Origin: a virus
Virus record (IMG/VR): IMGVR_UViG_3300032753_001573
Span: 91,689 to 155,688 of that record
DNA: 64,000 bases
Reading direction: 5' to 3' (one strand)
Positions 5,593 through 64,000 of the stretch are shown piece after piece. Numbering within the stretch: position 1 is the first letter of the stretch; the number at the start of each line of letters is the position of its first letter. The translations under genes and the position numbers were made by a program. The notes beneath the pieces were generated by a model. It was not told the origin of the DNA. It did no database searches and saw only the letters and a list, made by a program, of their open reading frames with translations.

Positions 5593-7476
5593 ATGGTAAC
5601 TGTGAAGAATGATGAAATTGTCAAGCTGAGCGATTATTCTCATGCACGTCTGCGTACAGAAATGTACTTGGGTAGCAGGAGCCCGCATACTCAAATTATA
5701 GTAAATTGGGATGGTACCAAATTGGCTCCCGTAGAGATGACGTGGACACCTGCTGTATATTGTGCATTCCGCGAAATACTAGACAATGCTCTAGATGAAG
5801 TAATCGGACACGGATTTGGCAGCAAGATAGATGTCACATATGATCCCAAGACTACTGAATTTACTGTAGCAGATGACGGCAGAGGTATTCCTATTGATTG
5901 GGATGAAACTGAGAGGATGCACAAGGCAACAATTGCCCTAACACAAGCTCGAGCTGGCCGTAACTTTGGAAATCGTGAGGAAGTCAGAGGAACCAATGGT
6001 ATCGGAGCGTCTGTGGTTGTCAATTGCAGTGAATACTTTGATATAATAGTACATAGAGACAATCAAAGATTTGCTCAAAGTTTCCACGAGGGCAACGAAA
6101 TATTTGACCAGCTTGATATCAAAGAACCAAAGATCACTAAGAGCGGTGCCAAGACAGGCACCGAGATAAAATTCAAACTCAGCAAGACTGTGTTCAAGAA
6201 GATCAAACTACCTATTGATTTTGTTAGGGCACGTATATTTGAGATAGCTGCCAACCATCCCAAGATACGAATCACTTTCAACAGTGAGCGAGTAGTTGTT
6301 AAGCCAACTATTGAAAAGACTATGTTTGCTAGCAACGATGTAATCACCATCGAAGTCAATGACAAGAAATTCAAGAGCAATTATTATCTAGTACCCGGGT
6401 TCTCTGCCGACGGCGAATATCTACATACAACTGTTAATGACATTCCTGCATTCAACGGAGGTCAGCATATTGATACGTTCAAGCGACTGTTCTACGGTGG
6501 ATTGCTCAAGGGTTTAGAGCGAGAAAGCAAGCGCCGCGGATTAACACCCAATAGGTCAGACATTTCAGATGGTTTGTTGATCTACAATGTAACATTCATG
6601 CATTCCCCAAACTTTGATAGCCAGAGCAAAACAAGATTAATCAATGATGATGTTGATGGTTATATCAAAACGGTACTAGAGAACGAGGATACGTTCAAAA
6701 AGATCATCAAGAGCAACAAAGAATGGATTGATCAAATCTATGCCCGATGTGCTGCTAGAACTCAAAAGAAAGACACTGCCGACCTTGCCAAATTGGGTCG
6801 CAAGCTTATGCGTAACAAAGTTCCCAAACTATTGGATGCTAACGGCAAAGACAGGACCAAGTGCATATTGATCATCACCGAGGGAGATTCGGCCAAGGGC
6901 ATGATATCGGCTGTTCGCGATCCAGAAGTACACGGCGCATTGCCGCTACGAGGTAAGATTCTAAATGTCAGAGGTGAAGCGCCCAAGGTGATCATCGAAA
7001 ATCAAATCATTCAGGATCTCATGACCAGTATTGGGTGTGTGCTGGGACAACCGGCTGAACGCAAAGATTTGAGATATGGTCGTGTCTATCTAGCTGCTGA
7101 CCAAGATCCAGACGGGGCCAATATCACAGCACTATTGGTTAATTTCTTCTATTTGCATTGGCCAGAACTATTTGATCCCAATCAAGAACCATTCTTCTAT
7201 GCGTTCCAAACTCCTTTTATTATTCAAGAGAAGGGCAAGACCAGACACTATTGGTATGCTCACAACTATCACGAGTACAATCCTGCAGATTGGAAGAATT
7301 GTCCAAAGCCAACTAGAGCCAAAGGTCTAGGTAGTTTAGAGGAAGCTGATTGGATACACAGTCTTGCTAATCCGCAGCTTATTGCGCTAGTAGATGACGG
7401 CAATCTTGGCGAAGTTTTGGATCTCATATTCAACCATGAGAAAGCTGATGCTCGCAAGGATTGGATATCTCTCTAA
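5593..7476 (+). CDS. 39: type II DNA topoisomerase, large (ATPase + TOPRIM) subunit, T4 gp39-like
   Basis: ATP-dependent DNA topoisomerase subunit working with the medium subunit encoded at 7863. The N-terminal GHKL ATPase has EILDNALDEV (about residue 58), DDGRGIP and GTNGIGASVV. The TOPRIM domain has TEGDSAKGM (about residue 430) and the metal-binding DQDPDGA (about 503). At 627 residues it combines what T4 splits between gp39 and gp60. In T4 this enzyme is needed for replication-fork progress and origin melting. It is transcribed after the RNA locus from its own promoter. Confidence 0.95.
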   Translation: MVTVKNDEIVKLSDYSHARLRTEMYLGSRSPHTQIIVNWDGTKLAPVEMTWTPAVYCAFREILDNALDEVIGHGFGSKIDVTYDPKTTEFTVADDGRGIPIDWDETERMHKATIALTQARAGRNFGNREEVRGTNGIGASVVVNCSEYFDIIVHRDNQRFAQSFHEGNEIFDQLDIKEPKITKSGAKTGTEIKFKLSKTVFKKIKLPIDFVRARIFEIAANHPKIRITFNSERVVVKPTIEKTMFASNDVITIEVNDKKFKSNYYLVPGFSADGEYLHTTVNDIPAFNGGQHIDTFKRLFYGGLLKGLERESKRRGLTPNRSDISDGLLIYNVTFMHSPNFDSQSKTRLINDDVDGYIKTVLENEDTFKKIIKSNKEWIDQIYARCAARTQKKDTADLAKLGRKLMRNKVPKLLDANGKDRTKCILIITEGDSAKGMISAVRDPEVHGALPLRGKILNVRGEAPKVIIENQIIQDLMTSIGCVLGQPAERKDLRYGRVYLAADQDPDGANITALLVNFFYLHWPELFDPNQEPFFYAFQTPFIIQEKGKTRHYWYAHNYHEYNPADWKNCPKPTRAKGLGSLEEADWIHSLANPQLIALVDDGNLGEVLDLIFNHEKADARKDWISL

Positions 7477-27615: not shown

Positions 27616-28881
27616 ATGAATATGGCAGGACAGAACAAGATCCTACGTCAATGCAGCTTCTGCGGCAAAAACCAGCTACAAGTGCAGAAACTAATCAATG
27701 GCAATGATGTGTATATTTGCAATGAATGTGTAGATCTTTGTCACAGCATATTGTCGCAGGATGACGACTCAAAGCCGTCAAAGACTGACAAACGTATGAT
27801 ACCAGAGGTTATCAAATCCTATTTGGATGAAAGAGTAATAGGCCAAGATACAGCAAAGACTATATTGAGTGTAGCAATTTACAACCACCTACAAAGGGTA
27901 GAGAATCCTATTGTAGACGGAGTAGAATTAGATAAGAGCAACCTATTGTTCATTGGACCCAGTGGTAGTGGTAAGACTTATTTGATACAAAATGTCAGTA
28001 AGCTACTTGATATTCCTTTTGTAATTATCGATGCTACCAGTCTAACTGAAAGTGGTTATGTTGGATTAGATGTTGAGGATTGTATAGCACGTTTATATCA
28101 AGCATCAGGTGGGGATATTGATAAAACTCAGCGTGGCATTGTTTATATAGACGAGATTGACAAGAAAGGTCGTAAAGGAGAGAACGCTAGTATTACTCGC
28201 GATGTAAGCGGCGAGGGTGTGCAGCAAGCTCTTCTGAAAATGATCGAAGGTTGCGAAGTCAAAGTGCCTCCGCAGGGAGGTCGCAAGAATCCTCACGGCG
28301 AATATGTAACAGTGGATACCAAAAACATCTTGTTTATATTGGGCGGAGCGTTTGTTGGTATTGAAGATGTTGTTAGCAAGCGTCTAGATACCAATAACAC
28401 TGGTATAGGATTTATGGCCACAATGCCTGGTGATAAACCAGACCCAGAACAAGTTCGCAAGATGATGAGGTCTGTAAAACATGAGGATGTAGCTAAGTTT
28501 GGTTTGATTCCAGAATTAATTGGACGTCTACCAATTATTGTTCCGTTTGATCACCTAAAAGAAGAGGATTTGATCAGAATTCTAACAGAGCCTAAGAATG
28601 CTGTAGTCAAGCAATTCCAAAAACAATTTGAACTTGATAATGTTAGGTTAGAGTTTAGGGATGCTGCATTGAAAGCGATAGCAGAACAAGCTATCGAAAA
28701 GAAAACTGGTGCTCGAGGATTGCGTAGCATCATAGAGAACATCCTGTTGCCCGCGCAGTTTGAATTACCGTCTCTGCAGGACAAGGGTGTAAGTACCGTG
28801 GTGGTCACGGAAAGCTGCGTCACTGATGGTCAGGACCCAGTTAAAATTTACAGGAGTGAAACAGAAGTTGCCAATAATTAA
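27616..28881 (+). CDS. clpX: ATP-dependent unfoldase ClpX
   Basis: Hexameric AAA+ unfoldase that feeds substrates to ClpP. Zinc-binding domain Cys13-x2-Cys16...Cys35-x2-Cys38; Walker A GPSGSGKT (114-121); Walker [12 protein letters not shown]; pore-loop GYVG followed by L where E. coli has E; IGF loop kept (TGIGFMAT), which docks ClpP; C-terminal [13 protein letters not shown] sensor-2 region. The loop that is RKH in E. coli reads GGRKNP here; in E. coli that loop helps read the ssrA tag. 421 residues, full length. No ClpP is in the window, so it likely uses host ClpP. Start may be ATG 27616 or 27622. Confidence 0.96.
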
Positions 28882-29446
28882 TGGTGTTGCGAATCCTAGA
28901 GACCGCAGGCAGGCTGGAGATCTAATAAAGGATCAATATGCTGCAAATTATAACATACGACATCCGCAAGTTCGGTTAGTTGGAGATGATGGTTCTAATC
29001 ATGGTGTCATAGATACAAAACAAGCTATTGCTATGGCTCAGTTAGAAGATTTGGATCTAGTGCTAGTAAATACTTCTGCAAATCCTCCTGTCGCAAGGAT
29101 ATGCGACTATAACAAGTTCATCTATGAGCAAAAGCGACACAAGAAAGAGCAAGATCGCAAGCTCAGAGAGCATGCCATCGTTGTCAAAGAAATACAGTTG
29201 CGACCCAGCATCAGCAATCATGATCTAGATATCAAGCTACAGCATGCTCGAGAATGGTTGGCAGACAATTGCAAGATCAAGATTGTGGTCAAATTCAGAG
29301 GGCGTGAGATGGCCTACAAATCCAAAGGATTTGAGATGATCAACAACTTTGTTGACAAGCTCGGTTGCAAGATTGAAAAGGCACCCGATATGAATAACAA
29401 TACTTTGATAGCTATGGTAGCACCTGGTGCCAAAACTACCAAATAA
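28856..29446 (+). CDS. infC: translation initiation factor IF-3
   Basis: Binds the 30S subunit and controls start-codon choice and subunit splitting. The N-domain begins near [21 protein letters not shown]...HPQVRLVGDDG and holds GVIDTKQAIAMAQLEDLDLVLVNTSANPPVARICDYNKFIYEQ (the IF-3 signature). The C-domain has VKEIQLRPSISNHDLDIKLQHAREWL and KIVVKFRGREMAYKSKG. The start is unclear: GTG 28856 overlaps the end of clpX, TTG 28868 has AGGAG at a better distance, and ATG 28826 has no ribosome site. An atypical start would echo cellular infC, which uses AUU. Overlapping clpX implies coupled expression. Confidence 0.93.
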   Translation: MKQKLPIINGVANPRDRRQAGDLIKDQYAANYNIRHPQVRLVGDDGSNHGVIDTKQAIAMAQLEDLDLVLVNTSANPPVARICDYNKFIYEQKRHKKEQDRKLREHAIVVKEIQLRPSISNHDLDIKLQHAREWLADNCKIKIVVKFRGREMAYKSKGFEMINNFVDKLGCKIEKAPDMNNNTLIAMVAPGAKTTK

Positions 29447-29448
29447 AT

Positions 29449-29478
29449 TTGACAATCACTTGTTAGAAATGGTATACA
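29449..29478 (+). promoter_or_regulatory. promoter of the bS21 gene
   Basis: TTGACA (29449-29454), 18-base spacer, ATGG TATACA (29473-29478), 29 bases before the bS21 start. Confidence 0.6.
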
Positions 29479-29506
29479 TAAACGATCCAATTAGGAATGA
29501 GGAATC

Positions 29507-29818
29507 ATGAGCGACGATATTTTCTTTGGCAAACGCGGCATATCAGTTAAGGTTTTTAATAATAACATTAACGGTGCCCTAACGCAGCTTAAACGCAAGG
29601 TTAATGCCGAAGGCATCAATAAGGAACTACGCAAGCGAGAATGCTTTGAACCAAACACTGCAAAACGTAGGCGCAAGTTGGCTGAAGCACAGATACGTTG
29701 GAAGAAGAAGTACGATCAAATTATGGAAGTACCTAAGCCCAAACGCAAGCTGAAGAAGAGGCAGTTGAAACAGCAGCAGGCGTCTGCAAATAATTCTTCT
29801 ACAACTGTTCAGACATAA
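29507..29818 (+). CDS. rpsU: ribosomal protein bS21 homologue
   Basis: Small-subunit protein near the anti-Shine-Dalgarno end of 16S rRNA. The core ISVKVFNNNINGALTQLKRKVNAEGINKELRKRECFEPNTAKRRRKLAEAQIRWKKK follows bS21 (vkV.....e.AlrrFkrk...agil.elrrRe.yekpt.kRkrk...a.kr..kk). 103 residues, longer than the 71 of E. coli because of a basic, Gln-rich tail. Phage-encoded bS21 is known in pelagiphages and huge phages and is thought to tune ribosomes toward viral mRNA. It has its own promoter and terminator. Confidence 0.93.
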   Translation: MSDDIFFGKRGISVKVFNNNINGALTQLKRKVNAEGINKELRKRECFEPNTAKRRRKLAEAQIRWKKKYDQIMEVPKPKRKLKKRQLKQQQASANNSSTTVQT

Positions 29819-29852
29819 TATCTAGTATCACAACAAAGTTTGTATCATGCTT

Positions 29853-29884
29853 ATGTGGACGAGATAAACTCGTCCACATTTTCT
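29853..29884 (+). terminator. intrinsic terminator after bS21
   Basis: 11-bp stem ATGTGGACGAG / CTCGTCCACAT with ATAAA loop, followed by TTTTC. Confidence 0.85.
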
Positions 29885-29894
29885 TATCTAGGTC

Positions 29895-29923
29895 TTGACA
29901 ATTGTTACTTCAATGACTACATA
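29895..29923 (+). promoter_or_regulatory. promoter of hsp20
   Basis: TTGACA (29895-29900), 17-base spacer, TGAC TACATA (29918-29923). Confidence 0.5.
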
Positions 29924-29985
29924 TATTGTGTAGGATGCCAATAGGGTCCTACATTAACTTTCTTGCTTAACAAAGGAGAAACACT

Positions 29986-30484
29986 ATGTACGATAACACA
30001 CTTGATTCAATCATCAATCATCAACCAGCACCTCCGCACGCTCAATCGCAACTTTATTGGTTTTGAACCAACTCTAAGGCGTTTGACGCTAAGCGACTCG
30101 TTAGAAAACTCTGGAGGATATCCTCCTTATAATCTTGAAGTGATTGCAGATAATCACTATAGGATTACACTTGCGGTTGCTGGATTCAAGATGGAAGAGC
30201 TTGATATCACATTAGCCGACAACAAGCTAACCATTAGTGGTACCACATCTCAACGTAGCGACAACGATGTTAGAACATTTGTACACAAGGGTATAGCAGA
30301 ACGTAGCTTTACTAGAAGCTTTATCCTAGCTGATCATGTGAACATCACTGGTGCTGAGTTGGAAAATGGTCTACTCACTATCGATCTAGAACAGGAAATA
30401 CCAGAGGCATTGAAGCCTCGAAAGATTGCGATCAAACACAAAGACGTTATTGACGCAACACCTGTTAAATCGTCAAAGGCTTGA
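29986..30484 (+). CDS. hsp20: small heat shock protein Hsp20 (IbpA-like), apparent +1 frameshift near the start
   Basis: ATP-independent holdase. The alpha-crystallin core is unmistakable: NRNFIGFEPTLRRL, GGYPPYNLEVIADNHYRITLAVAGFKMEELDI, GIAERSFTRSFILADHVNITGAELENGLLTIDLEQEIPEALKPRKIAI, close to E. coli IbpA/B. The only good start, ATG 29986 with AAAGGAGAAACACT, opens a different frame (MYDNTLDSIINHQPAPP...) that stops at 30064-30066 (TTT TGA). The core frame has only TTG starts (29963, 30002) without ribosome sites. So a one-base shift is needed somewhere in 29990-30060, a stretch of repeated ATCATCAA. Sequencing error, start-codon oddity or programmed +1 shift remain open. Confidence 0.85.
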
Positions 30485-30513
30485 TTGACACGCACCCATA
30501 TGATGCCTACAAT
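30485..30513 (+). promoter_or_regulatory. promoter of clpS
   Basis: TTGACA (30485-30490), 17-base spacer, TGCC TACAAT (30508-30513), directly after the hsp20 stop. Confidence 0.65.
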
Positions 30514-30540
30514 TAGGCATATGAAATAAAGGATGGAGCC

Positions 30541-30852
30541 ATGGTAGAGACCAAGAATGATGTAGTTGTAGCTGTCATTGAAAAGGTTGCCATGGCTCCT
30601 CCTAGAATGTGGAATGTGGTATTATTCAATGATGAAAAGACCACAATGGAATTTGTAGTTCTTGTTCTGATGCAGATCTTCTATAAGAGTTTTGAAGAAG
30701 CTCAAGATATCATGATGAGTATACATGAGAATGGCAAGGGAGTTGCTGGCACTTATTCACTTGAGGTAGCATCTGCTAAACGAGACGACACTCTCAGCGT
30801 AGCAAGAACTAATGGATTTCCACTCGTAGCAGAAATTGAGCCTAACGAATGA
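30541..30852 (+). CDS. clpS: ClpS adaptor of the N-degron pathway
   Basis: ClpS binds proteins with destabilising N-terminal residues and hands them to ClpA(P) in proteobacteria. Here PRMWNVVLFNDEKTTMEFVVLVLMQIFYKSFEEAQDIMMSIHENGKGVAGTYSLEVASAKRD matches the family; the peptide-binding residues N-D (LFND) and the H of IHENG are kept. 103 residues. No ClpA gene is in the window; host ClpA or the phage ClpX would be its partner. Overlaps the next gene by four bases. Confidence 0.93.
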   Translation: MVETKNDVVVAVIEKVAMAPPRMWNVVLFNDEKTTMEFVVLVLMQIFYKSFEEAQDIMMSIHENGKGVAGTYSLEVASAKRDDTLSVARTNGFPLVAEIEPNE

Positions 30853-31106
30853 TCAACGATTTTGACAAATTAAAATCTCAGCTCAATGAAGGTTGGGCTA
30901 GAGTAGAGTTTACCAAAGTAGATGGCTCTAATCGCAGCATGCTCTGTACTCGAAATTTTGCTGAAATACCAGAGTCTCAAGTTCCTCATGGTACAGGAAA
31001 GAAACCAAATGATTCTGTGCTAGGCGTGTTTGACCTAGAGAAGCAAGCTTGGCGTAGCATTCGAATTGATAACATACAGAGCTGGCAACCCGAACGCAAC
31101 CTTTGA
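30849..31106 (+). CDS. SH3-like beta-barrel phage protein (DUF2693-like)
   Basis: 85 residues: GWARVEFTKVDGSNRSMLCTRNFAEIPESQVPHGTGKKPNDSVLGVFDLEKQAWRSIRIDNI. The pattern v.F.K.DG..R.m.cT....iP.........n...v.vfDle...WRsfr.d.i is that of the small SH3-barrel proteins common in T4-like phages. Role unknown. Translationally coupled to clpS (ATGA). Confidence 0.8.
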   Translation: MINDFDKLKSQLNEGWARVEFTKVDGSNRSMLCTRNFAEIPESQVPHGTGKKPNDSVLGVFDLEKQAWRSIRIDNIQSWQPERNL

Positions 31107-31114
31107 GGTCTATT

Positions 31115-31327
31115 ATGGGGCACTATGATGATCAATATGAAGAAGATTATCGCTTAGAACGTGAAAGACGAGAGCGAATAGAAAAGGCTAAGATAGCCAA
31201 AGGATATGAAAAGGTTCCTGAACCTCTAAGAGATTTTCTAAAACAAGAATGGATTCATGCGGATCAATTAAAGACGTTGAGGCGTTGGTTGAATACGTGT
31301 CCTTACTGTAAATTAGTAGACGATTGA
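31115..31327 (+). CDS. hypothetical protein (70 aa)
   Basis: ATG 31115 follows GAGGTCTATT. Very charged helix (YDDQYEEDYRLERERRERIEKAKIAKGYEKV), then a helical segment ending in a CPYCK knuckle. A lone CxxC suggests metal binding by dimerisation or redox, not certain. Confidence 0.55.
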   Translation: MGHYDDQYEEDYRLERERRERIEKAKIAKGYEKVPEPLRDFLKQEWIHADQLKTLRRWLNTCPYCKLVDD

Positions 31328-31352
31328 GCACGCGATATAGCAGGAGAATTTT

Positions 31353-31799
31353 ATGGATAACCCAATTTTGAGAATGGACCTACCAGCCGGTATGGTTCTG
31401 ATAGAATGCTTTCCAGATCTAGCACCCAATCATGTAGCGCAGATACTAGATCAAGCCAACAGAGGATTATACGACGGTACGGTTTTCCATAGAGTGATAT
31501 CTGGATTTATGGCACAGGGCGGATGGACAAAACAGCAATTGCCGCAACTTCAGGCAGAGTTCAATGACTATCCTCATGTTGAGGGTACTTGCAGCATGGC
31601 TCGTACCAATGACCCTAATAGTGCTAGTGATCAATTCTTCATCTGTTTCAATGACTGCAGATTCCTTGATCGGAATTATACAGTTTGGGGTAAAGTCATA
31701 TATGGCATGAAGCATATACACGATGGTATTGCTAAGGGTGAACCGCCGGCGGAACCCACTCCAATTGTTCGCATGCGTCATGTAGGTACCATTAATTGA
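31353..31799 (+). CDS. ppi: cyclophilin-type peptidyl-prolyl cis-trans isomerase
   Basis: Speeds proline isomerisation in folding. The core GLYDGTVFHRVISGFMAQGG contains the FHR catalytic Arg and the GF..QGG strand; SMARTNDPNSASDQFFICFND is the m(A)......SqFFI block; YTVWGKVIYGMKHI the fG.V..Gm....I end. 148 residues, single domain and cytosolic (no signal). Unusual in phages; it fits the neighbouring chaperone genes. GCAGGAGAATTTT is the ribosome site. Confidence 0.92.
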   Translation: MDNPILRMDLPAGMVLIECFPDLAPNHVAQILDQANRGLYDGTVFHRVISGFMAQGGWTKQQLPQLQAEFNDYPHVEGTCSMARTNDPNSASDQFFICFNDCRFLDRNYTVWGKVIYGMKHIHDGIAKGEPPAEPTPIVRMRHVGTIN

Positions 31800-31816
31800 T
31801 ATGTTATTATTATAAC

Positions 31817-31824
31817 AATAAATA
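31817..31824 (+). promoter_or_regulatory. late-type motif AATAAATA, near-leaderless arrangement
   Basis: AATAAATA then seven bases then ATG 31832; no Shine-Dalgarno. Confidence 0.45.
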
Positions 31825-31831
31825 ATTTGCT

Positions 31832-32461
31832 ATGAAAGCAATTGAGAGAATACATTTAGAAATAACGAGCAGATGCACGTTAGCTTGTCCACAATGTCCT
31901 CGCACCGAATTTAAGGATTTAAATATTATATCTGATATGCCTATAGAGACAGCAGCAGCGGCATGTAAAGGATATAATCATATGTACATAGTTGGAAATC
32001 ATGGAGATCCTATATATCATCCTAAGTTTCATGAACTAATGTCTAGATTAAGGGAGGATAATCCTCTTTTGACATTTTATTTTCATACTAACGGAAGTTT
32101 CAGAAGTGAAAAATGGTGGATAAAAACAGCTAATATACTCAATCATCTAGATGAGATAGTTTTCAGTATAGATGGTTTACCTGGTAATGATCTGTATAGA
32201 GTTAATTCTAGATGGTCCTCTATAGAATTGGGTATCAAAACTTTACGTAAGCATAATACAAAATTAAAGATGACTTGGAAGTGGATACATTTCAAATATA
32301 ATCAAAATGATGTAGAATCTGCTATAGATATTGCTAAAGATCTAGGTTTTGATCAATTCTGTTTCGTTGAGAGCGACAGGACTCAGGACGGACATTGGTT
32401 AACACCGGAGATTTCCTGGAAATCAGTGAAGGATAAGTTATATGCCAGTTGTAGAAGCTAA
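31832..32461 (+). CDS. radical SAM enzyme, catalytic domain
   Basis: The 4Fe-4S motif CTLACPQC (Cys15-x3-Cys19-x2-Cys22) sits after IERIHLEITSR, the usual first strand, followed by YIVGNHGDPIYHPKF (GGE-like G-DP) and IVFSIDGLPGNDLYR, as in SPASM/twitch radical SAM proteins. The chain ends after about 210 residues without its C-terminal accessory domain, which is encoded by the next, overlapping frame. Substrate unknown; such viral enzymes may modify peptides or act on sugars. Confidence 0.85.
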   Translation: MKAIERIHLEITSRCTLACPQCPRTEFKDLNIISDMPIETAAAACKGYNHMYIVGNHGDPIYHPKFHELMSRLREDNPLLTFYFHTNGSFRSEKWWIKTANILNHLDEIVFSIDGLPGNDLYRVNSRWSSIELGIKTLRKHNTKLKMTWKWIHFKYNQNDVESAIDIAKDLGFDQFCFVESDRTQDGHWLTPEISWKSVKDKLYASCRS

Positions 32462-32801
32462 ATGCGCAAGAGGAGATTCTTCACCTTTTGTTAATCCGGA
32501 TGGGTATTATTTTCCTTGCTGTTGGGTAATGAATATTCCTGAAGTTATAACTCTAAAAGAGTTTCTCGGCGATACATTTGAAGAGTTAAACATTAACAAT
32601 TCTAGCTTAGAAGAGGCTATGAATAGCAATGCTATGAAAAGAATAAGAGATAGCTGGGAAGATGGTAGTTTTCAACCATGTGTATGGTATTGCAAACAAA
32701 AAAATAATTTGTATAATGTACAAAATGAGCGAGAGTTTTTTATAGATTTGAAAAAATGGTCTAACCTAGAAGATTATAAAAATCTTAATTCCGGCTCTTG
32801 A
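32442..32801 (+). CDS. SPASM/twitch-like iron-sulfur accessory domain as a separate gene
   Basis: Begins 20 bases inside the radical SAM gene, +1 frame, with GAAGGATAAGTTAT upstream as a possible ribosome site. KCARGDSSPFVNPDGYYFPCCW is the typical start of the auxiliary-cluster domain (C......v..dG...pCC.), with later Cys in FQPCVWYCKQ. Normally fused to the catalytic domain; here split. Either a natural two-gene arrangement or a frameshift. Confidence 0.75.
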   Translation: MPVVEAKCARGDSSPFVNPDGYYFPCCWVMNIPEVITLKEFLGDTFEELNINNSSLEEAMNSNAMKRIRDSWEDGSFQPCVWYCKQKNNLYNVQNEREFFIDLKKWSNLEDYKNLNSGS

Positions 32802-32889
32802 AATTCACTAATAAGTTTATTATATCTAATTATGTAACAGTGCTTGAATAAGGCTGTTGCAAGCGATCTTGCTTCAAAAGGAGACAAAC

Positions 32890-34731
<1,842 letters not shown>

Positions 34732-37069: not shown

Positions 37070-37861
37070 ATGAACATAGCTATCAGCGGATACGGATACG
37101 TTGGTAAGGCCACAGAGATAACCTTGACGCAGCATTGGGAAACTGGTGCACCGCTAGATATCTGCGTACAAGATCCCGCGTTAGGCAAACAAGTAGACGA
37201 TTGGAATAGTATTGGTTATCACATGGTTTGCGTTCCAACTCCTTCTGCTACAGTTCATGAAGGACATGCAAGTCACAATATATCTGCAGTAATTGATGCG
37301 GTGGAATTAGCTAAACGCTTGGGATTCTCTGGCATAACAGTCTTTAGGAGCACTATGAGTCCAATTGATCTCGAAGCTGTGATGTGCATAGTTGGTGTAA
37401 ACAAATGTATCAGCTGGCCAGAATTTCTAAGACAGTCTAGCTGGGAAAAAGATGCTAGATATCCAAATCTAAGCATTATGGGCGGAGAGCCGGCAAGCAA
37501 ACTGATTGGCCATTTATCAAAACTTTCAATTACCGAGCTAGGAGATGCTCGTACAGCATGTATGGCCAAGTTGGCTATCAACAGCTACTTGGCAACTAGA
37601 ACAGTCATTGCACATGATTTGCGAAAAGCTTGCGATGCATTAGCAATAGATTATGATGACATAACTCGTGCTATTGGAGAAGACTCTAGGATAGGTAGTA
37701 GCCATTGGCAACAGCCAGGACCAGATGGTAGTTGGGGATTTGGTGGAGCATGTTTCCCAAAAGATACACAGGCTATGGCTGCTATGATGGATAGTTTTGG
37801 TCTCGGCGATAACTTTGCAAAGTGGGCTACAGATCATAATTCTACAATTCGAACAAAGTGA
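37070..37861 (+). CDS. UDP-glucose/GDP-mannose dehydrogenase family protein, short form
   Basis: NAD-dependent oxidation of nucleotide sugars to uronic acids. Rossmann start IAISGYGYVGKA (residues 3-14); VCVPTPS strand; central dimer helix KLAINSYLATRTVIAHDL; catalytic Cys in GGACFPKDTQAM (about residue 228). 263 residues, so it lacks the C-terminal UDP-sugar domain of the 400+ residue enzymes. May work with the phage glycosyltransferases. TGGAGATAACAA serves as ribosome site. Confidence 0.85.
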   Translation: MNIAISGYGYVGKATEITLTQHWETGAPLDICVQDPALGKQVDDWNSIGYHMVCVPTPSATVHEGHASHNISAVIDAVELAKRLGFSGITVFRSTMSPIDLEAVMCIVGVNKCISWPEFLRQSSWEKDARYPNLSIMGGEPASKLIGHLSKLSITELGDARTACMAKLAINSYLATRTVIAHDLRKACDALAIDYDDITRAIGEDSRIGSSHWQQPGPDGSWGFGGACFPKDTQAMAAMMDSFGLGDNFAKWATDHNSTIRTK

Positions 37862-53309: not shown

Positions 53310-54932
53310 TCAATCAATATTCAATGATGTGTTGCTGTTGAACTTGTTGAACAGCATTTGATCTTCGCTGCCCCAAAGGCTGTTAAAATTGCTATAATCG
53401 TTGTTCAATCCTGTATCATACAATGTTGTTTGGCTATTGTATGTTAACCAAGATTGCAATTGGGCTGGTGCAGCGTGGGGATTAATTTGCAGGAACAATG
53501 CACCTAGGCCGCACACCTGAGGACTAGCCATACTTGTGCCATCTAGATTGGCTTGCAACCAGCTTGTATCTAAAAAGTATGGTGCTGGTTCATATCCGTC
53601 GTTGGTAATCTCATTTGCCCGACTCATGCTGCTGGTAATTCCTGTACCAGGACTGTATATGCTAACTCCGGGTCCGCCCTCGCTGAAAAACACTTTTTGA
53701 TCTTGAGATTGACTATATGAATTGATATCAATAGCACCAACTATGTTGGCATTTGTGCTATATGGACTGCTACCTTGGTTATAGAAATTTATGTCGTCAT
53801 AAATGTCTGTGAAATAATTCTGATAGTCTGGTCCCAGTGGCGCATCAATTTTTATGCCATCGTTTCCTGCAGCAATACAAACGTGTATTCCTGCAGCTAT
53901 CATTTCGTCAATTGCTATATCTGTAGCTGGATCTCTAATAGGGAATGTGCCTATTGATTGTGATCCCATGCCATATTCAGTATGTATGTCACTGACCAAC
54001 TGTGATCCACTCCATGGTGTTCCGCGATAGTTGCCGCCAGTTATAATTGTTTCTGAGTCTGTTATATAATAGCTGCCTGTTATGCCCCAACTCATGTTGA
54101 CTATAGTTGGACGCTTGTAACCAGTAGTGGGATCAATTGGTTTGTTATTGTGCCAGCCTATCATAATGTCAAATATGTCGCTGTAAGGCAAACCTGATGT
54201 GTCGATAGGTGAAACTAAATCTTCTAGCTTGATGCTGTAAATCTGAGCATTCTTTGCCCATCCAAATGTCTTGCCAGCGGCTATGCCTGTGACATGTGTA
54301 CCGTGACCAAATACGTCGCTATAATGACCAGATGGCATAGTACCCGATACACCGCTTGCAGCATACCAATCTATTTGTTGTACTCTGCTGTTGCCATTTG
54401 CATCTTTGAATTCTGGGTGATTAACTTCAAGGCCAGTATCTACTACTAGAACATCTACACCTGTGCCGTCTAGGGTATAATTGTATTGTCCTATCACTGA
54501 ATAACTAACACCGTAGTTATTAACTGCGCTGTTTACTCTGCTCAGTCCCCAATTGACATTGTTGCCTACACTGTTTGTAGTTTTATCAAAATTATTGTAT
54601 TGTGTAGCATAGGGTTTTATTACAGCATTGTTCTTGTGCTGAATAGGTATAGTAACGCTATGTACTCTAGCATCTCCGCGTAGGGTTGCTGCCTCGCTGC
54701 TGGTTATTGCATAATGTCTGAGCCTATTAACATTAGGTCTTTGTTTTAACACCCTCACTGCCCTCGATGGAATAGCATCCGTGCTCTTATGTGCAGTTTC
54801 CATCTTGTCCCAAAATGCATTGTGATCTACATCTGCTTTTAAGGCTACTATATACTCTTGCCCATCTGGATGTGCGGCAACAGTTTTGGTAATTACCTTG
54901 GGTAGTGATTTGTTTTTTGATCTACCTTGCAT
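53310..54932 (-). CDS. subtilisin-like serine protease (S8) in the tail-fibre locus
   Basis: 540 residues. Propeptide-like I9 segment at the start (EYIVALKADVDHNAFWDKMETAH...), then the complete triad: Asp165 in VLVVDTGLEVNHPEF, His210 in FGHGTHVTGIAAG, Ser in DGTSMASPQVCGLGALF (near residue 470), with the oxyanion Asn in CIAAGNDG. No signal peptide. Might mature fibres, degrade surface protein or exopolymers during adsorption. Codon use is AT-rich like the native phage genes. Confidence 0.93.
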   Translation of the reverse strand: MQGRSKNKSLPKVITKTVAAHPDGQEYIVALKADVDHNAFWDKMETAHKSTDAIPSRAVRVLKQRPNVNRLRHYAITSSEAATLRGDARVHSVTIPIQHKNNAVIKPYATQYNNFDKTTNSVGNNVNWGLSRVNSAVNNYGVSYSVIGQYNYTLDGTGVDVLVVDTGLEVNHPEFKDANGNSRVQQIDWYAASGVSGTMPSGHYSDVFGHGTHVTGIAAGKTFGWAKNAQIYSIKLEDLVSPIDTSGLPYSDIFDIMIGWHNNKPIDPTTGYKRPTIVNMSWGITGSYYITDSETIITGGNYRGTPWSGSQLVSDIHTEYGMGSQSIGTFPIRDPATDIAIDEMIAAGIHVCIAAGNDGIKIDAPLGPDYQNYFTDIYDDINFYNQGSSPYSTNANIVGAIDINSYSQSQDQKVFFSEGGPGVSIYSPGTGITSSMSRANEITNDGYEPAPYFLDTSWLQANLDGTSMASPQVCGLGALFLQINPHAAPAQLQSWLTYNSQTTLYDTGLNNDYSNFNSLWGSEDQMLFNKFNSNTSLNID

Positions 54933-62799: not shown

Positions 62800-62840
62800 T
62801 TGGATTACACCTTGTGATATTCTTTGATCATGTTATACGT

Positions 62841-62847
62841 TATTTAG
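62841..62847 (-). promoter_or_regulatory. late promoter motif CTAAATA
   Basis: Minus strand AGCTAAATAACG, 41 bases before the fibre start at 62799. Confidence 0.5.
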
Positions 62848-62875
62848 CTGGTATAGATTTTACATAAACCATGCA

Positions 62876-62882
62876 ATAAATA
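62876..62882 (+). promoter_or_regulatory. late promoter ATAAATA, leaderless arrangement
   Basis: ATAAATA-TGGT-ATG, the same 14 bases as before the gene at 40072. No ribosome-binding site. Confidence 0.55.
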
Positions 62883-62886
62883 TGGT

Positions 62887-63678
62887 ATGAAGAAATACAG
62901 AAGCATTTGGATAAGTGACTTGCATCTAGGAACAAACGGTTGCAAAGCAGACGATCTGTGTAAATTTCTCAAACAACATGAATGTGAACACTTATATCTA
63001 GTAGGAGATATAGTAGACGGTTGGAAGCTTAATCGAGGATGGTATTGGCCACAAAGTCATAGCAATGTTGTTAGACGACTGCTTACCAAAGCCAAAAGAA
63101 GTACCAATATAACTTATATAACTGGAAATCACGACGAGTTTCTCAGAGATTGGACGAGATTTGGGTTGTATTTGGGTAATGTTAAGATAGTTAATGAGGC
63201 AGAACATATAGGCGTCGATGGAAAACGTTATCTAGTTACTCACGGCGATATGTTTGATGCTGTTACTAGGAATTACAAATGGGTTAGTTTGTTAGGAGAT
63301 TTAGCTTACGAGTTATTAATAAAAGCTAACTCTGTATTGAACAAGACTTGCAAATGGTTTGGTTACGGTTATTGGAGTTTTAGCAGATATATAAAGGTTA
63401 ATGTTAAACAAGCTACTAGTTTCATATTTAAATTTGAAAAACATTTAGCAGAATATGCAGCCAAAGGACAATATCACGGAGTGTTCTGCGGACATATACA
63501 TATGCCAGAGATCAGAAAGATAGACAACATTGTATATCTAAACGACGGATGTTGGGTAGAAAATTGCTCTGCTATAGTTGAAAACTTTGACGGCACTTTT
63601 GAATTGCTTATACAAGGAACAGATGGTGAAATGTATGTAGAGCGCAGATACGATGTAAGTAGTGGAGAGATAGCATGA
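62887..63678 (+). CDS. plcP: PlcP-type metallophosphoesterase (LpxH/UDP-diacylglucosamine hydrolase-like)
   Basis: Calcineurin-like metal site complete: SDLHLG (Asp11, His13), VGDIVDGW (Asp41), GNHDE (Asn81-His82), THGDMFD and CGHIHMP. The stretches YLVGDIVDGWKLNRGWYWPQSHSNVVRRLL and KWFGYGYWSFSRYIKVNVKQATSFIFKFE are typical of the subfamily usually annotated UDP-2,3-diacylglucosamine hydrolase, which includes the PlcP phospholipase C of rhizobia and SAR11 used to strip phosphate from phospholipids under phosphate limitation. 263 residues, cytosolic. Its stop overlaps the GT4 gene start (ATGA), the same pairing as plcP-agt. Lipid A-type hydrolysis is the alternative. Confidence 0.85.
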   Translation: MKKYRSIWISDLHLGTNGCKADDLCKFLKQHECEHLYLVGDIVDGWKLNRGWYWPQSHSNVVRRLLTKAKRSTNITYITGNHDEFLRDWTRFGLYLGNVKIVNEAEHIGVDGKRYLVTHGDMFDAVTRNYKWVSLLGDLAYELLIKANSVLNKTCKWFGYGYWSFSRYIKVNVKQATSFIFKFEKHLAEYAAKGQYHGVFCGHIHMPEIRKIDNIVYLNDGCWVENCSAIVENFDGTFELLIQGTDGEMYVERRYDVSSGEIA

Positions 63679-64000
63679 AAATTTGCTTGGTTACTGATAC
63701 TTGGGATAACGTCAACGGAGTCTGTACTACTCTCAAAAATACTGTGAGAGAATTAACAGCTATGGGACATGATGTGCTGGTAATAGAACCAAGCCAGTTT
63801 AAAACTATCAAAATGCCTAGATATCCTGAAGTTAAACTGAGCATAAACATATGGTCTGTTGGAAAAAAGATAAAGAATTTCAAACCAGATAGCATACATA
63901 TTGCAACAGAAGGTCCATTAGGTATAGCAGCATGTTGGTATTGTAACGTGAAGAAAAATAGTATTCCTCACAACACCAGTTATCATACTAAATTTCCAGA
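63675..64000 (+). CDS. GT4 glycosyltransferase, N-terminal part (cut by right edge), Agt-like by context
   Basis: 108 residues to the edge: MKICLVTDTWDNVNGVCTTLKNTVRELTAMGHDVLVIEPSQFK...FKPDSIHIATEGPLGIAACWYC...IPHNTSYHTKFP. This is the GT4 start (D.w.p..NGV..t........L...GHeV..i.P) with the (H)...TEGPLG.aA......p....yHT.fp block of glycolipid-making diacylglycerol glycosyltransferases such as Agt, SqdX and MgtA relatives. Translationally coupled to the metallophosphoesterase. Together they could turn phospholipid into glycolipid. Confidence 0.85.
   Translation, partial: MKICLVTDTWDNVNGVCTTLKNTVRELTAMGHDVLVIEPSQFKTIKMPRYPEVKLSINIWSVGKKIKNFKPDSIHIATEGPLGIAACWYCNVKKNSIPHNTSYHTKFP

Follow-up and report, generated by a model that had tools for sequence, protein, structure and literature searches.

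A plcP-agt-like gene pair with a predicted role in lipid remodelling on a probable jumbo-phage contig

The bacterial plcP-agt operon has been characterised in SAR11 strain HTCC7211, Erythrobacter, and Methylosinus trichosporium OB3b (PMC4796936, PMC8231724, PMC9239053), and these homologues are the source of the chemistry that we discuss below. In GTcp, the glycosyltransferase of SAR11, mutations showed that Gly16, Gly82, and Gly85 are needed, and His104 is catalytic (PMC8231724). Among phages, the cultured Pelagibacter phage Mosig EXVC030M (Kyanoviridae) has a gene for a PlcP relative (Mosig_00120, 48% identity) with a PstS-type gene beside it. Mosig_00120 is annotated as a “putative UDP-2,3-diacylglucosamine hydrolase” and is not discussed in the phage's paper (PMC7892664). 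A survey of pelagimyophages read their glycosyltransferases as LPS-modifying (PMC7029224), and viral lpxH is listed in other surveys (PMC10653327, PMC9611531). Here we describe a gene pair on a viral contig that resembles plcP-agt.

The locus and the phage that carries it

We analyzed a window of 64,000 bases (bases 91689-155688 of a 155,688-base virus record). The contig terminates within the second gene of the pair. The features at this end are:

62800..62886, + strand: intergenic stretch 5' of plcP, between divergent genes; no Pho box, one weak sigma-70-like match
62887..63678, + strand: plcP-like metallophosphoesterase (phospholipase C type), complete, 263 amino acids, ATG start; from Pfam and metal motifs
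63675..63678, + strand: ATGA shared by the end of plcP and the start of agt; read from the sequence
63675..64000, + strand: agt-like GT4 diacylglycerol glycosyltransferase (predicted), first 108 amino acids; from PF13439, residues, and clade

The preliminary description of this locus reported an ATGA overlap, and the four shared bases can be read directly; translation of the two genes is likely to be coupled. It also proposed obtaining the rest of the glycosyltransferase gene, which did not succeed: searching the other part of the contig with tblastn found no missing piece. The pair adjoins a block of tail-fibre-type genes, which lies on the opposite strand, and points away from it. GC content is slightly lower in the last kilobase (0.36 vs. 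about 0.41). In the upstream stretch, the sole sigma-70-like match is weak and not above chance. No convincing Pho box was found 5' of the window's plcP, in a weak scan that did not pick up any SAR11 control either; a gene of a phage might be regulated differently. The same scan gave matches of 12/14 in L008 and 11/14 in L020; no SAR11 control reached 11, and we set these matches aside. Neither PhoH nor any tRNA was found on the window's contig.

The contig encodes a T4-type Gp23 capsid protein and a terminase, which confirms that the pair is in a phage, as the preliminary description had stated. The capsid protein shares 77% identity with its counterpart in Sinorhizobium phage Phosso (469 kb), and the terminase 54%; the capsid protein of G028, an IMG/VR contig of 452,799 bases that carries an intact plcP-agt pair in its interior, is closer still, at 92%. 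Given these capsid matches, we regard the contig as very probably part of a T4-like jumbo phage, amounting to about a third of a genome of around 450 kb. The hosts of the nearest cultured relatives are Sinorhizobium, Agrobacterium, and Pseudomonas.

This phage has other genes of interest. A subtilase (Peptidase_S8) is encoded amid the tail-fibre-type genes (window 53310-54932). Genes for protein quality (window 27616-34731 and L004:17550-19531) include ClpX-like, ClpS, cyclophilin, and DnaK (Hsp70, 873 bits), and GroES and GroEL are encoded elsewhere on the contig. A sugar cluster (L002:11373-14929), with a second GT4, a SIS isomerase, a GHMP kinase, and a mannosyltransferase, looks like surface-glycan synthesis. 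A short gene of the UDP-glucose-dehydrogenase family lies 25 kb from the pair (window 37070-37861). In a jumbo-phage relative (L173:3-3876), pieces of a DNA-polymerase-like gene are split by intein-like and homing-endonuclease-like segments.

Families of the two proteins

The preliminary description took the first gene to encode a PlcP-type metallophosphoesterase, and the similarities agree. The complete reading frame matches Pfam's Metallophos_2 (49.4 bits) and Metallophos (40 bits), both above the curated cut-off, and all of the calcineurin-like metal motifs are kept (D11/H13, G40-D41..D44, G80-N-H-D83, H119, and G202-H-I-H205). The protein is 47-57% identical to proteobacterial PlcP and 43-51% identical to SAR11 PlcP, vs. 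about 24% over 124 amino acids for E. coli LpxH. Its scores against the LpxH equivalog models are far under the cut-offs (38.3 vs. 134 bits and 26.6 vs. 190.35), and the same is true of PlcP from phage Mosig and of two PlcP from bacterial plcP-agt pairs. The window's protein carries GNHD in place of the GNRD of LpxH, and LpxH does not have many of the residues that are invariant in PlcP. In a tree of the hydrolases, LpxH is remote, on a very long branch, and the window's protein groups with PlcP from plcP-agt operons. Phylogeny had been suggested as a check for grouping with LpxH, and both tree and scores place the protein elsewhere. We reject its identification as LpxH, on the basis of the equivalog scores, GNHD, the tree, and the identities. 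The protein is PlcP-like and, by family, is predicted to convert phosphatidylglycerol (PG) and phosphatidylethanolamine (PE) to diacylglycerol (DAG).

Two distant or unusual relatives should be mentioned. The best bacterial match to the window's PlcP (57%) is from L086, a contig of 3,690 bases that was binned as Hyphomonas; this is a short MAG contig, and its PlcP is placed near viral sequences in the tree. With 33% identity and a long branch, the protein from S-SRM01 is too remote for a confident call as PlcP.

The AlphaFold2 model of the window's PlcP is fairly confident, with a pLDDT of 87.9. The nearest solved fold is LpxH (TM 0.54-0.57, 16-18% identity). A fold search of BFVD found distant metallophosphoesterases only, and sequence searches of PDB with single proteins gave no matches.

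Most of the other near-invariant residues of PlcP are kept in the window's protein, and positions 155 and 222 are both cysteine. The other PlcP that we compared all have D222 (106/106), including the relatives in L173 and L176, and nearly all have R155 (29/30 viral and 74/76 bacterial). Neither position is known to define the family, but the two cysteines may mean that this copy of PlcP has a changed specificity or activity.

The second gene is open from 63675 to the end of the contig and matches PF13439 (Glyco_transf_4) at 41.3 bits, above the cut-off; full-length viral relatives have 330-355 amino acids. Relatives were found in eight further viral loci, seven of them at 66-78% identity over the whole window fragment, while the best bacterial and SAR11 Agt matches are 49-57% identical. 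The GT4s of E. coli have no significant similarity to the fragment, and one distant glycosyltransferase from Campylobacterales is 37% identical. The fragment has the N-terminal Agt signature: NGV (G15), HIATEGPLG (G80 and G83), and SYHTKFP (H104) hold the counterparts of Gly16, Gly82, Gly85, and His104 of GTcp. The fragment stops short of the C-terminal motifs, for which our references from Agt were GRVAxEKN and FPSxTDTFG (Arg190, Lys195, and Asp256). Its nearest full-length viral relatives (333-335 amino acids) have SRxSxEKG and FPSx(S/T)DTFG, and some viral members deviate in the UDP-sugar motifs (FPSRWETFG or FTSRWDTFG).

When we built a tree with 46 Agts from bacteria and SAR11, all 20 of the viral glycosyltransferases, including the window's, formed one clade within the Agt family (support 100/99). 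WaaG, WaaB, WcaC, WcaI, and WcaL of E. coli fall far outside the family, so we reject an identity as an LPS or capsule GT4. For the nearest full-length relative, the predicted structure is confident (pLDDT 93.4) and matches the folds of GT4 enzymes, for example MshA, BshA, and PimB. The GT4 with features of diacylglycerol glycosyltransferases that the preliminary description saw is thus borne out by family, signature, and placement, and the phylogeny that it had proposed for this protein favors Agt. The outcome that it had named as a refutation, a hydrolase grouping with UDP-diacylglucosamine hydrolases and a GT4 grouping with O-antigen or teichoic-type enzymes, did not occur. The protein is Agt-like, and its family and residues predict that it transfers a sugar from a UDP-sugar to DAG.

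Recurrence and history of the pair in viruses

Our scan of viral contigs found plcP in at least 84 other loci, which is a lower bound because the scan demands exact peptide patterns. Removing near-copies left 43 viral loci with plcP, phage Mosig included, of which 41 had room to judge the neighbors and 2 did not. Among those 41 non-redundant loci, the neighbor is Agt in 25 and a GT2 (PF00535) in 12, and 4 have no glycosyltransferase nearby; in other words, a glycosyltransferase of some kind adjoins plcP in 37 of 41. For comparison, agt is adjacent to plcP in 19 of 20 SAR11 genomes and in 48 of 77 bacterial plcP loci with room. The 4-base overlap also recurs, in 14 further pairs on viral contigs (near-copies counted) and in several bacterial pairs. 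Since plcP recurs in 84 viral loci and Agt is adjacent in 25 of 41, the pairing is not due to chance.

Gp23 or terminase is also present on eleven of the Agt-carrying records; for the remaining contigs, we rely on the viral call of IMG/VR. We left out “Bacteriophage sp.” MT836169 (L085) as evidence, as its neighboring genes look bacterial. The GT2-family neighbor in place of Agt is seen, for example, at L015:6704-7453, L054:2302-3012, and L076:5289-6002. Perhaps plcP with GT2 is a second viral type of lipid remodelling.

The surroundings of the pair vary. In one group of contigs (G015-G019 and G023), it lies about 1 kb from the terminase gene. In G028, it comes next to, and after, apparent DNA polymerase and sliding-clamp genes rather than tail genes. 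Because the pair adjoins terminase, polymerase and clamp, or tail fibres, depending on the phage, it must have moved. The glycosyltransferase nearest to the window's is that of L169 (78% identity), but between the PlcPs of these two loci identity is just 44%, and the AU test rejects (P = 0.002) a clade uniting the PlcPs of the window, L169, and L170. (A common origin of every viral PlcP is not rejected by the AU test, with P = 0.32, nor is it demonstrated.) Judging from these comparisons, the histories of PlcP and Agt differ, and adjacency survives reassortment. Joint working is the simplest reason for genes that reassort to remain neighbors, frequently overlapping by 4 bases, and we infer that PlcP and Agt work together.

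Some of the neighboring genes have fitting functions. In the viral contig L020, a PAP2-type phosphatase (6928-7446) lies between plcP and the Agt-like GT4, and in phage Mosig, the gene adjoining plcP encodes a PstS-type phosphate-binding protein. UDP-glucose-dehydrogenase-family genes are within a few kb of plcP in L028, L038, L040, and L073. PhoH is present in several other plcP carriers. In a SAR86 single-cell genome (L097:4989-8097), plcP, agt, and a UDP-glucose-dehydrogenase-family gene form an overlapping run; the third gene could supply UDP-glucuronate for GADG, and the run suggests that SAR86 synthesizes glucuronosyl lipids. The PAP2, PstS, and UDP-glucose-dehydrogenase-family neighbors fit with lipid remodelling but are only suggestive.

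Predicted role, alternatives, and comparison with known systems

We propose that the pair is a phage-encoded auxiliary metabolic module for lipid remodelling, homologous to the bacterial plcP-agt, and we put the probability of this at roughly 0.77. The chemistry follows from homology to the characterised enzymes. PlcP would cleave host phospholipids (PG and PE) to DAG and a phosphorylated headgroup. Agt would then transfer a sugar (hexose or hexuronic acid) from a UDP-sugar donor to the DAG, giving glycolipids of the MGDG or GADG type. These would replace phospholipids, so that the membrane would lose phosphorus and remain a bilayer, and phosphate from the headgroups could feed nucleotide synthesis. 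The host's membrane may thus be rebuilt, and its phosphorus recycled, during infection. Several observations count against a lipid module: a weak scan saw no Pho box, PhoH was not found on the contig, the window's PlcP has Cys155 and Cys222, the window's glycosyltransferase ends before its C-terminal half, so that UDP-sugar motifs were read in relatives, some of which deviate, and the phage has other sugar genes.

A rough count illustrates what the phage might gain. At jumbo-phage size, each virion would need about 0.9 million phosphorus atoms (0.94 million for a genome of ~469 kb). A cell the size of E. coli has about 20 million phospholipids, so the host's membrane phosphorus would be about enough for some 20 such genomes. 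The module would mobilise phosphorus that is already in the host's membrane.

The same chemistry might instead benefit the phage by altering the membrane (its glycolipid content, charge, or fluidity), against superinfection, for lysis, or for a replication compartment, with phosphorus salvage incidental. We consider this a serious contender, with a chance not far below one half. The lipid composition of the host affects phage attachment in Ruegeria (PMC9938194), and phospholipid recycling is altered in virocells (PMC12282109). The window's pair adjoins tail-fibre-type genes, and its contig has neither a Pho box nor PhoH that we could find. On the other hand, PstS beside plcP in Mosig, and PhoH in several other carriers, point to phosphorus, and the pair of G028 is next to apparent replication genes rather than tail genes. 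The sequence data cannot separate phosphorus salvage from changed membrane properties or superinfection exclusion as the benefit. A narrower doubt concerns the window's own PlcP, which might be a degenerate or repurposed copy whose activity is lost or changed while the module works in its relatives (L173 and L176 keep Asp222). The cysteines at two otherwise invariant or nearly invariant positions raise this doubt, but with every metal ligand intact, a full reading frame, and the overlap with agt kept, we think it unlikely.

Two further explanations are improbable. If the hydrolase were an LpxH-type UDP-2,3-diacylglucosamine hydrolase and the GT4 built LPS or O-antigen, the pair would modify the surface. 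This matches the public annotation (UDP-2,3-diacylglucosamine hydrolase or diphosphatase) and the nearest solved fold, and given the phage's other sugar genes, a surface-glycan role for the GT4 is conceivable. It is strongly disfavoured by the model scores, by GNHD in place of GNRD, by 24% identity over 124 amino acids to LpxH as against 47-57% to PlcP, and by a glycosyltransferase that lies outside the LPS and capsule GT4s. Even more improbable is an assembly artefact, with a piece of a host's plcP-agt fused onto one end of a phage contig. The pair does lie in the last 1.1 kb, where GC is slightly lower. However, both proteins have their nearest relatives on viral contigs, and in G028, whose capsid protein is 92% identical, the pair is inside a phage contig of 452,799 bases.

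If the lipid module is real, it connects phages with the response by which lipids are remodelled in phosphate-poor waters, and it predicts that infected cells contain glycolipids, which could serve as a marker. Because public annotation calls the gene “UDP-2,3-diacylglucosamine diphosphatase” and surveys list lpxH, viral plcP may have been tallied as lpxH, and viral “lpxH” calls may hide plcP. We suggest re-examining those survey entries (PMC10653327, PMC9611531). A broader view, which we hold tentatively and at slightly less than even odds, is that several phage lineages share a distinct viral plcP-agt lineage that strips phosphorus from membranes while glycolipids keep the bilayer, that membrane phospholipid would thereby be a phosphorus store for viral DNA, and that many viral “lpxH” calls, in surveys of oceans and lakes, are plcP.

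The preliminary description considered this metabolism to be undescribed for phages. We found no description of a phage PlcP or Agt in the open-access papers that we searched, which agrees, although a relative of plcP was already present in the cultured pelagiphage Mosig. The enzyme families and the operon were known from bacteria, and we do not claim priority for the phage-borne form. The phage pair and the bacterial operon combine the same two families in one gene order, frequently with an overlap, and have the metal motifs and the Agt signature residues in common. The pair differs in being phage-borne, in that the viral glycosyltransferases form their own clade, and in that no Pho box was seen upstream in the window. 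Also, the window's PlcP has Cys155 and Cys222, and the nearest viral glycosyltransferases have SRxSxEKG where bacterial Agt has GRVAxEKN. Mosig_00120, unlike the window's plcP, has no adjoining glycosyltransferase. LpxH shares the calcineurin-like superfamily with the window's PlcP and is its nearest solved fold (TM about 0.55), but it is only about 24% identical over 124 amino acids and has GNRD for GNHD. Finally, the phosphorus-related auxiliary genes of phages, pstS and phoH, are linked to the host's phosphorus economy and concern uptake or stress, whereas plcP-agt would draw phosphorus from the host's membrane itself.
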